NCBI RefSeq assembly: GCF_000725345.1
Contig: NZ_CP008852.1
Span: forward strand, 5,035,001-5,099,000
Length of the DNA stretch: 64,000 nucleotides
From: Pelosinus sp. UFO1
GTDB taxonomy: Bacteria > Bacillota > Negativicutes > DSM-13327
Direction of reading: 5' to 3'
Position 1 is the stretch's first letter, and each line of letters begins with the position of its first letter. Of the stretch, positions 7,828 through 55,340 are shown in pieces. The translations under genes were made by a program, and so were the position numbers. The notes below the pieces were generated by a model. That model had not been told where the DNA came from and did not search any database. It saw only the letters and a list, made by a program, of their open reading frames with translations.

Positions 7828-7866
7828 AAAAAATGCTGAGTGCTCGAATTGCGCTCAGCATTTTTT
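7828..7866 (+). terminator. Intrinsic terminator after the PepT-like gene
   Basis: TGCTGAGTGC pairs with GCGCTCAGCA (one G-U pair) around a 7-nt loop. It is flanked by A- and T-runs, so it could work in both directions. Confidence 0.92.
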
Positions 7867-7966
7867 ACGGAATCAGAAAGTATAGCACTTCCTTGATTCC
7901 AAGTAAGAACGACTAAGGCTTCTGCCTGCGTCTGAAGACTTGGCCTAAGCCAAGTCTTTTCTTATT
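7867..7966 (+). repeat. Structured ~97-nt dispersed repeat, copy A
   Basis: Hairpin 1 pairs GGAATCA with TGATTCC, hairpin 2 is AGGC-TTCT-GCCT, and hairpin 3 pairs GACTTGGC (7937-7944) with GCCAAGTC (7949-7956), then TTTTCTTAT. Near-identical copies are at 27144, 28761 and 55242. It begins directly after the U-tract of the previous terminator, between convergent genes. Confidence 0.92.
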
Positions 7967-27102: not shown

Positions 27103-27140
27103 GGAACTGTTTAAGAATACTTTTCTTAAGCAGTTCTTTG
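27103..27140 (+). terminator. Intrinsic terminator after the flavin protein gene
   Basis: GAACTG-TTTAAGAA pairs with TTCTTAA-GCAGTTC with one mismatch and is followed by TTTG. Structured repeat copy B begins within 5 nt. Confidence 0.75.
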
Positions 27141-27143
27141 TTA

Positions 27144-27240
27144 CGGAATCAAAAAGTATAATACTTTCTGATTCCAAGTAAGAACGACTAAGGCTTCTAC
27201 CTGCGTCCGTGAACTTGGCACAAGCCAAGTCTTTTCTTAT
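27144..27240 (+). repeat. Structured ~97-nt dispersed repeat, copy B
   Basis: Same layout as copy A. Hairpin 1 lacks the bulged T, hairpin 2 has one pair broken (GCCT to ACCT) and hairpin 3 has lost its outermost G-C. It is the most diverged of the four full copies. Beyond it, 27241-27456 holds no gene I can support. Confidence 0.9.
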
Positions 27241-27864: not shown

Positions 27865-28743
27865 ATGAAAAAACCTTTATTTATCGGGTCTGCTGTAGCT
27901 ATTGTAACTCCCTTTACTGAAAATGGTGTGGATTATGAAACATTAGAAAAATTAATTGAGTTTCAAATTGCAGGTGGATCAGACGCTATTGTAGTCTGTG
28001 GTACCACAGGAGAAGCTTCTACTATGCCAGATGATGAACATATTGCCGTTATCAAGTTTGCAGTAGAAAAAATCAATAAACGTGTACCGGTTATTGCTGG
28101 TACTGGCAGTAATGATACCCGTCATGCAATCGAATTATCCAAAGCAGCCCAAGATGTAGGTGCTGATGCAATCTTATCAGTCACTCCCTATTATAATAAA
28201 GCGACACAAAAAGGTTTATATGAACATTTTAAATTGATTGCGAATAATATTAAGATTCCAATCATTCTGTATAACGTGCCAAGTAGAACCAATCTGAACT
28301 TAAATCCTGAGACGATAAAAGCATTATCGGAAATTGATAATATTGTTGCCCTTAAGGAATGCAACCTTGGACAAGTTGGTGATGTAGTAAATCTATGTGG
28401 CGAAGAGTTTGCAGTGTATTCTGGTGATGATAATACAGTATTACCTCTTTTGTCACTGGGCGGGAAAGGTGTAATTTCCACAATGGCAAATATTATTCCA
28501 AGAGATACCCATGACATGGTTGCGAAATTTTTCCAGGGTGATGTGAATGGTGCTATCAAGATGCAGCTTCAGACACTAAATCTCATAAAAGCATTATTTA
28601 GCGAAGTAAATCCTATTCCAATTAAAGCAGCGGTAAACCTATTAGGTTTTAAAACTGGTTTATGCCGTATGCCTTTAACGGAACTTAGTGAAGATAATCT
28701 TGAGATTCTTCGCGCTGAAATGAAAGCTTATGGGTTAATCTGA
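27865..28743 (+). CDS. dapA: 4-hydroxy-tetrahydrodipicolinate synthase
   Basis: The 292-residue TIM-barrel lyase has all expected active-site residues: Schiff-base Lys164 in NIVALKEC, Thr47 in CGTTGEAST, Tyr136 in ILYNVPSRTN, and Arg141. It condenses pyruvate with aspartate semialdehyde, the first committed step to diaminopimelate and lysine. AAAGGCGG precedes ATG 27865. It is a lone gene, away from other lysine genes, and repeat copy C starts 17 nt after its stop. No lysine riboswitch is visible upstream. Confidence 0.95.
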   Translation: MKKPLFIGSAVAIVTPFTENGVDYETLEKLIEFQIAGGSDAIVVCGTTGEASTMPDDEHIAVIKFAVEKINKRVPVIAGTGSNDTRHAIELSKAAQDVGADAILSVTPYYNKATQKGLYEHFKLIANNIKIPIILYNVPSRTNLNLNPETIKALSEIDNIVALKECNLGQVGDVVNLCGEEFAVYSGDDNTVLPLLSLGGKGVISTMANIIPRDTHDMVAKFFQGDVNGAIKMQLQTLNLIKALFSEVNPIPIKAAVNLLGFKTGLCRMPLTELSEDNLEILRAEMKAYGLI

Positions 28744-28760
28744 TTCCGTTTTATCTTTTT

Positions 28761-28858
28761 CGGAATCAGAAAGTATAACACTTTCTTGATTCCAAGTAAG
28801 AACGACTAAGGCTTCTGCCTGCGTCCGAGGACTTGGCACAAGCCAAGTCTTTTCTTAT
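28761..28858 (+). repeat. Structured ~97-nt dispersed repeat, copy C
   Basis: Nearly identical to copy D. Hairpin 1: GGAATCA-GAAAGT pairs with ACTTTC-T-TGATTCC with one bulged T. Hairpin 2: AGGC-TTCT-GCCT. Hairpin 3: GACTTGGC-ACAA-GCCAAGTC then TTTTCTTAT. It directly follows dapA, where it may serve as the first terminator. Confidence 0.93.
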
Positions 28859-34306: not shown

Positions 34307-34341
34307 TGGTATCAGAATTTATAAGTTTCTAGTTAAAAAGA

Positions 34342-34466
34342 TTGAACCACAAAGACACAATGCCGCTATCGCGGCACACAAAGAAGATGGGAATGAAATG
34401 GATAGAACCTCTTTGTGACCTTTGTGTCTTTGTGGTTCAAAAAGGACGCGTAGCGTTTTTCTTATT
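34342..34466 (+). repeat. Palindromic dispersed repeat, three-way-junction copy
   Basis: The outer arms are a perfect 19-bp inverted repeat: TTGAACCACAAAGACACAA (34342-34360) and its complement (34422-34440). Inside are the hairpin TGCCGC-TATC-GCGGCA and a second hairpin CACAAAGA/TCTTTGTG. The tail AAAAAGGACGCGTAGCG plus T-run matches the copy after dinB. Arm sequences differ from that copy, but pairing is kept. Confidence 0.85.
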
Positions 34467-55199: not shown

Positions 55200-55239
55200 G
55201 AAAAAGGTTATTAACTCAATGAGCTAATAACCTTTTTCT
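55200..55239 (+). terminator. Intrinsic terminator after the second M20 gene
   Basis: AAAAAGGTTATTA (55201-55213) pairs perfectly with TAATAACCTTTTT (55225-55237). Repeat copy D begins right after it. Confidence 0.93.
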
Positions 55240-55241
55240 TA

Positions 55242-55340
55242 CGGAATCAGAAAGTATAACACTTTCTTGATTCCAAGTAAGAACGACTAAGGCTTCTGCC
55301 TACGTCCGAGGACTTGGCACAAGCCAAGTCTTTTCTTATA
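55242..55340 (+). repeat. Structured ~97-nt dispersed repeat, copy D
   Basis: Differs from copy C at only one or two positions (GCCTGCG to GCCTACG), with all three hairpins intact. It sits between convergent genes; its last bases form the stop codon of the minus-strand RpiR gene. Confidence 0.93.

Follow-up and report, generated by a model that had tools for sequence, protein, structure and literature searches.

Several described systems come close to the repeat studied here. Non-autonomous elements derived from IS200/IS605 include the PATE type, helitrons insert between A and T without target duplication and carry a 3' hairpin followed by CTTA, and elements of the IS110/IS1111 type have their targets chosen by RNA. 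Structure-guided insertion at terminators as a safe-harbour strategy is, to our knowledge, known mainly from group IIC introns. Their target is given, in the account drawn on here (PMC10190682), as a stem, a short spacer and CTTT^T, with AAAG as EBS1, and the repeat of REP/RAYT systems is defined (PMC3733652) as a GTAG- or CGTC-tagged palindrome of 20-40 bp. For the Y1 proteins of subclass 2.1 (TIRYT), PMC6006769 reports no REP found.

The 97-nt noncoding repeat described here (CGGAATCAG...TTTTCTTA, ends CGG...CTTA) resembles REP/REPIN with their RAYT (TnpA-REP) in being short, hairpin-forming, intergenic, mostly downstream of genes, non-autonomous and present in more than 100 copies, and in that most element-bearing genomes of our class sample hold a Y1 protein. 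Unlike those elements, it lacks a GTAG or CGTC tag at the end of a palindrome, is a three-hairpin unit of 97 nt, has tandems that run head-to-tail rather than alternating, does not sit beside the Y1 gene and has its insertion targeted to terminators. As with group IIC introns, insertion falls behind a DNA stem-loop and a T-rich spacer, but the element is 97 nt long, no ribozyme core was seen and its ends are different. It shares the absence of a target duplication and the hairpins near the ends with IS200/IS605-derived non-autonomous elements, but its target is structure plus T-tract and not a fixed tetranucleotide; no full-length IS with the element's ends was seen among the extracted loci. 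Small, non-autonomous and dispersed like MITEs, it nevertheless has neither terminal inverted repeats nor a target duplication.

Searches of Rfam at gathering score returned no match overlapping the element, and a known RNA family was rejected because the permissive matches lie far below gathering and were taken as chance (the best E-value in one permissive scan was Ncrwmel02, on the other strand, with E 0.0007 and 22.6 of 290.8 bits). A phage or plasmid element was set aside as far as tested, as an exact degenerate pattern found no match in viral contigs and blastn with one window copy found none in plasmids and phages. No description of the element was found in a literature search of articles without their supplements. 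The element is terminator-targeted, occurs across Firmicutes and has neither an Rfam entry nor a match in the literature searched.

A dispersed repeat with a conserved fold

The window analysed is a stretch of 64,000 nucleotides (C1:5035001-5099000) from genome G000, which is a single contig of 5,115,410 bases. The initial annotation had noticed four nearly identical copies in it, all pointing the same way, and all four were found again at the places given, though the covariance model trims their limits by up to 2 nt. The copies, and the parts of the one under study, are as follows.

28761..28857, + strand: element copy under study, 97 nt (covariance-model match, 122.6 bits; boundaries from the empty sites of other copies)
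7868..7964, + strand: element copy (covariance model, 114.8 bits)
27144..27239, + strand: element copy, 96 nt (covariance model, 101.1 bits; empty in sister genome G006)
55242..55338, + strand: element copy (covariance model, 121.3 bits)
28762..28793, + strand: hairpin 1, GGAATCAGAAAG / CTTTC-TTGATTCC (fold and covariation; diverges between lineages with compensatory changes)
28797..28802, + strand: TAAGAA, pairing with the element's own TTCTTA end (predicted fold)
28804..28825, + strand: hairpin 2, GAC-AGGC / GCCT-GTC (fold and covariation)
28830..28849, + strand: hairpin 3, GACTTGGC / GCCAAGTC, a terminator-like stem (fold and covariation)
28850..28857, + strand: TTTTCTTA, the conserved 3' end and the junction to the next element in tandems (copy comparison)

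Rather than these four copies only, the genome holds 116 occurrences of a 32-nt core at up to 3 mismatches, against 0 matches for the reversed pattern; as 60 lie forward and 56 reverse, the shared orientation holds for the window copies and not genome-wide. The full 98-base query is identical at 15 genomic places, the query itself counted. Of the 116 occurrences, 105 copies were retrieved (at least 11 being left out), and boundary counts use 102 copies, as 3/105 were dropped with one end not parsed.

Predicted folds contain the three hairpins and the outer pairing that had been proposed at the outset, with hairpin 1 followed by a TAAGAA/TTCTTA helix that closes hairpins 2 and 3. Folding z-scores of the four window copies were -7.6, -5.6, -7.6 and -4.9, and 0 of 200 shuffles were equally stable. 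Just upstream of the 28761 copy, at window positions 28740-28748, lies CTGATTCCG, which repeats the initial 9 nt of the element in inverted orientation and because of which the predicted fold of this copy is altered at hairpin 1 when longer upstream sequence is included. A terminator scan with a criterion of 5 T in 8 bases did not return hairpin 3 near 28761, so that "terminator-like" here refers to the fold and the T-rich tail, and a promoter scan around the same copy gave no promoter-like site, internal promoter included.

The covariance model was applied with strict filters and a ceiling of 13 or 10 matches per genome, and because of the filters genome counts are lower bounds: relatives occur in at least 30/300 class genomes and at least 19/398 phylum genomes, our own genome being counted in both. 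In distant copies the 3' half is retained and hairpin 1 has changed on both sides, as in the variant pairs GGAATCAG/TGATTCC, ATTATCAG/CTGATAAT, ATGATCAG/CTGATCAT, GTCTACCAGAATTT/AAATTCTGTTGAC and TCCAG/CTGGA, and hairpin 3 alone is matched at further places in relatives. Across 70 matches (67 distinct), both-side changes affect 17 pairs, 10 of them in hairpin 1, and the cells with both sides changed number 163, where shuffles give 40.8 and slid controls no more than 45, in an alignment that was fitted to the covariance model and leans towards it. A MAFFT alignment pointed in the same direction, with 16 cells against 4.1 shuffled and at most 6 slid. Pairing is thus conserved in relatives with compensatory changes, the opposite of what had been named as grounds for abandoning the initial reading.

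The landing site and the empty sites

Upstream of the four window copies we found the following target sequences.

28754..28760, + strand: T-tract TCTTTTT before the 28761 copy, without an ordinary terminator stem (sequence)
7833..7867, + strand: terminator stem-loop and T-tract, target of the 7868 copy (stem read by eye)
27104..27143, + strand: terminator stem-loop and TTTGTTA, target of the 27144 copy (stem read by eye)
55204..55241, + strand: terminator stem-loop and TTTCTTA, target of the 55242 copy (stem read by eye)

Genome-wide, T occupies four or more of the six positions from -7 to -2 in 101/102 copies (the sole exception being the copy at 4076565), with T at each of these positions in 89-101 of the 102. 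Position -1 is a purine in 99/102 copies (A in 76, G in 23) and position +1 is T or A in 101/102 (T in 88, A in 13); the insertion point thus has a purine before it and T or A after it, in the form TTTTTTR^T, with 69/102 copies being A^T insertions. The 50 nt upstream fold at -10 kcal/mol or below in 90/102 copies, compared with 23/163 other T5R^W sites (taken from the whole window, coding and noncoding) and 70/500 random positions, and the median upstream folding energy is -19 kcal/mol at copies against -5 at the other window sites. A looser count of stems only separates them less (96/102 copies, 93/163 sites and 310/510 shuffles), and in 12/102 copies the upstream hairpin falls short of the -10 criterion; some copies, such as the one at 1018563, have no hairpin. 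Relatives show the same layout, with a T-tract just upstream in 48/52 class and 36/38 phylum copies read and an upstream fold of -10 kcal/mol or below in 40/52 and 29/38, where about a quarter of shuffles (133/520 and 98/380) fold as well. The T-tract and upstream stem-loop together identify the usual target as an intrinsic terminator, insertion taking place where its T-tract ends and with a single orientation towards the target. The initial annotation, while right to think of a mobile element, had missed this combination of T-tract and stem-loop.

Script-predicted reading frames of at least 100 codons place an upstream frame in the same orientation at 42/48 copies with long flanks, the copy lying a median of 68 nt past the frame end, and only 1/48 copies lies inside a predicted frame. 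Orientation agrees with the G-rich strand of the replication arm in 85/105 copies (with the limits of the arms read off the skew by eye), a bias that gene orientation alone may explain.

Sister genome G006, with 95% identity in the initial 3.1 kb of the stretch compared, is without the copies at 27144 and 28761. Its empty site for the 27144 copy reads GTTCTTTGTTA^TTTTCC (GTTA^TTTT), which is ambiguous by itself as TTA is common to both junctions, and at the 28761 site its flank differs, without a clean junction. Two more empty sites, TTTTTTG^TTTACGG and TTTTAG^TACTATG, have G at -1 and thereby set the element limits at CGG...CTTA, with exact insertion and no duplication; a target duplication is ruled out by them. 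These exact empty sites, found in the sister species, together with the 116 dispersed core copies, bear out the early suggestion of a mobile noncoding element, and its stated lack of terminal inverted repeats (by sequence), of target duplications (by sequence and empty sites) and of a transposase (97 nt being too short to encode one) was likewise correct.

When 19 sites of G000 were queried in G006, 8 were filled in both and 6 differed (5 were left out), the latter comprising 4 that align contiguously (one with a TTCTTA scar), 1 deleted remnant and 1 second-family copy. Besides the scar, an internal deletion is seen at another of the sites in G006. Head-to-tail tandems were seen as a dimer in G000, a trimer in G110 and a dimer in G142, and since hairpin 3 plus TTTTCTTA, with which the element ends, has the layout of the target, a copy can itself serve as a target. 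We are close to certain that the element is mobile and terminator-targeted.

At one G000 element site (L168, around 1530), TTCTTA stands alone in G006, a scar for which element loss between two T-tracts is a possible origin.

A candidate driver and its competitors

We read the repeat as a small non-autonomous transposable element with intrinsic transcription terminators as its landing site. We lean, if only slightly, towards a single-strand Y1/HUH enzyme as what moves it: an HUH/Y1-type transposase (IS200/IS605- or RAYT-like), presumably supplied in trans, would recognise "hairpin + T-rich + R^T" in the target as well as at the 3' end of the element, cut there and join the element's 5' end to the terminator. 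More speculatively, TAAGAA inside the element could also pair with the target TTTTTR and so act as a guide. With wobble allowed, 74/102 targets pair with TAAGAA and 71-74 with every T-first scramble; this control gave no specific support for such a role, and TCCAG-type relatives are without TAAGAA.

The strongest candidate for the driver is a Y1 protein resembling REP transposases. The G000 genome has one full-length Y1 protein (253 aa, gene at C1:398012-398770, L091) that matches Pfam Y1_Tnp and reaches 74.7 of 80 bits against NCBIfam REP_Tyr_transpos, just under the cut-off, and a partial Y1 match lies at 3546063. The sequence GGGGACGG is found upstream of the gene at 398012, and this together with a C-terminal extension resembles subclass 2.1 (TIRYT) as PMC6006769 presents it. 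Downstream of the gene stands a weak hairpin and after it CTTTCTTA (CTCTTCTTA in G006), like the element's end, a likeness that is possibly due to chance.

Homologs of the Y1 protein encoded at 398012 (E<=1e-30) were found in 26/30 element-bearing compared with 20/270 element-free class genomes (14/15 at five or more element matches, 12/15 at 1-4 and 20/270 at none), where element- and Y1-bearing genomes were matched between searches assuming the same draw (300 class genomes; phylum likewise). Of our prior prediction, the excess over element-free genomes was present in the class sample, whereas the difference between high- and low-copy genomes was absent. The phylum genomes held Y1 in 8/8 at five or more matches, 0/11 at 1-4 and 98/379 element-free, a split at five that was noticed after the fact, and taken as one group the 19 phylum element genomes (8 with Y1) did not differ significantly from the element-free ones (p = 0.18). 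Genome size is a confounder here, as among the first 60 genomes those of at least 3.5 Mb gave 13/14 vs 8/13 (p = 0.08), and a published survey links Y1 genes to large genomes. One exception is G008, a MAG that is 89% complete, with at least 13 element matches and no Y1 found.

Only 1/59 Y1 loci, about 24 of which were informative as coming from genomes with element matches, had an element within 1.5 kb, and among 50 loci searched with G000-type motifs only, that same locus was the sole one with a copy nearby. A classical REP with flanking RAYT was rejected on this lack of flanking and on the missing tag. Given the outcome of the guide control and the half of the prediction that failed, we hold the case for a Y1/HUH enzyme slightly less firmly.

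Other drivers were weighed against this one. The target layout is close to that of group IIC introns as set out in PMC10190682, which would suit an RNA-mediated route in which the transcribed element is put into the terminator in trans, through reverse splicing or reverse transcription, in the way those introns insert at stem-loops; so would the RNA-like covariation and the element's own terminator-like 3' end. We nonetheless consider this route unlikely, because an RVT_1 search found no reverse transcriptase in the element's own genome, despite 15 query-identical places (query counted), and neither group II end sequences nor a domain-5-like hairpin nor an Rfam group II match was seen; a group II intron driver encoded in the same genome was rejected on the RVT_1 result. 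About equally unlikely, in our judgement, is another trans-acting recombinase, such as a bridge-RNA guided IS110/IS1111 enzyme, an integrase or a Y2/rolling-circle (helitron/IS91-like) protein. The lack of duplication speaks for it, and the frequent A^T insertion (69/102) together with a 3' hairpin and CTTA resembles helitrons, but the target is set by structure and T-tract rather than by a fixed sequence and no larger autonomous relative with the element's ends turned up among the extracted loci.

The structured 3'-end RNA that was initially offered beside the mobile element agrees with the position after genes and with the conserved pairing, while expression as RNA is putative. In its stronger form, a primarily functional RNA (a 3'-UTR or small RNA serving as regulator, stabiliser or back-up terminator) would be under selection and its copying incidental, for which one may cite the compensatory changes (163 cells vs 40.8 in shuffles), the 3' half conserved across Firmicutes, the location downstream of genes, an old 3'-half copy at one place in four genomes and the 8/19 sites filled in both sisters. 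Yet 6/19 sites differ between the sister species (5 left out), covariation is to be expected just as much of a structure that transposition requires, and there is no promoter-like site near the 28761 copy; we accord this explanation a low probability. Gene conversion or recombination among similar terminators, as a passive means of spread, could draw on the T-tracts that terminators have in common and on the hairpin 3-only matches elsewhere in relatives, but the target stems are mutually unrelated, the full 97-nt unit is exact at unrelated places and the empty sites largely refute it, leaving it very improbable.

A second family and sites in related genomes

A second repeat family in the window, type B, appears to share the kind of target just described.

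34307..34464, + strand: second family "type B", TGGTATCAG...GTTTTTCTTA, 158 nt (limits inferred from copy comparison)

This copy is preceded by a terminator-like stem and TTTTTGA, and the 158-nt repeat has a TTTTTCTTA 3' end and a long internal GAACCACAAAGACACAA / TTGTGTCTTTGTGGTTC hairpin. Fifteen copies were read, 12 of them in G006, and most start at a T-tract or a few bases past it; 6/15 lie directly behind the 97-nt element's end, a number biased by the search route. One site holds the 97-nt element in G000 and a 158-nt type B copy in G006, with the same right junction. The likeness of the two families in target and 3' end suggests a shared insertion machinery.

Returning to an element moved by a Y1/HUH enzyme, we tentatively raise a broader reading, possible but rather doubtful: a transposable-element class that has two or more families with unrelated bodies (97 nt, 158 nt) in G000 and relatives across Firmicutes, with the folded intrinsic terminator as its target and an own 3' terminator-like hairpin that renews the target at each insertion, would supply the substrates so far lacking for those TnpA-Y1 proteins that are REP-less and extended at the C terminus (subclass 2.1 in PMC6006769). 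Landing behind terminators keeps genes free of insertions while the element adds its own terminator-like 3' end, and here such safe-harbour insertion is achieved by a tiny element without ribozyme or reverse transcriptase. The element offers a testable substrate for a large Y1 protein family without known REPs; it also marks terminators naturally and may have contributed additional 3'-end hairpins to the genomes of Firmicutes.

Several sites in other genomes deserve mention. In the distant genome G408 (L358:88-199 and 201-290), a PyrR binding site (Rfam RF00515, 55.3 bits, gathering 54) is followed directly by an element relative; the site is the element's neighbour and not the element, and regulatory attenuators may therefore also be targets. 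An old 3'-half copy is common to four genomes of the same genus (L042:1252-2977, also L040, L041 and L043), where it sits between the gene of a 46-aa cysteine-rich peptide, which we take to be SCIFF (scfA), and a 451-aa gene, presumably that of its radical SAM maturase; G006 carries a different repeat at its SCIFF-like locus (L181). In genomes G017 and G034 (L039:1349-1711, L058 and L059), a repeat of ~363 bp contains the element, and this host repeat itself seems to lie behind a T-tract.
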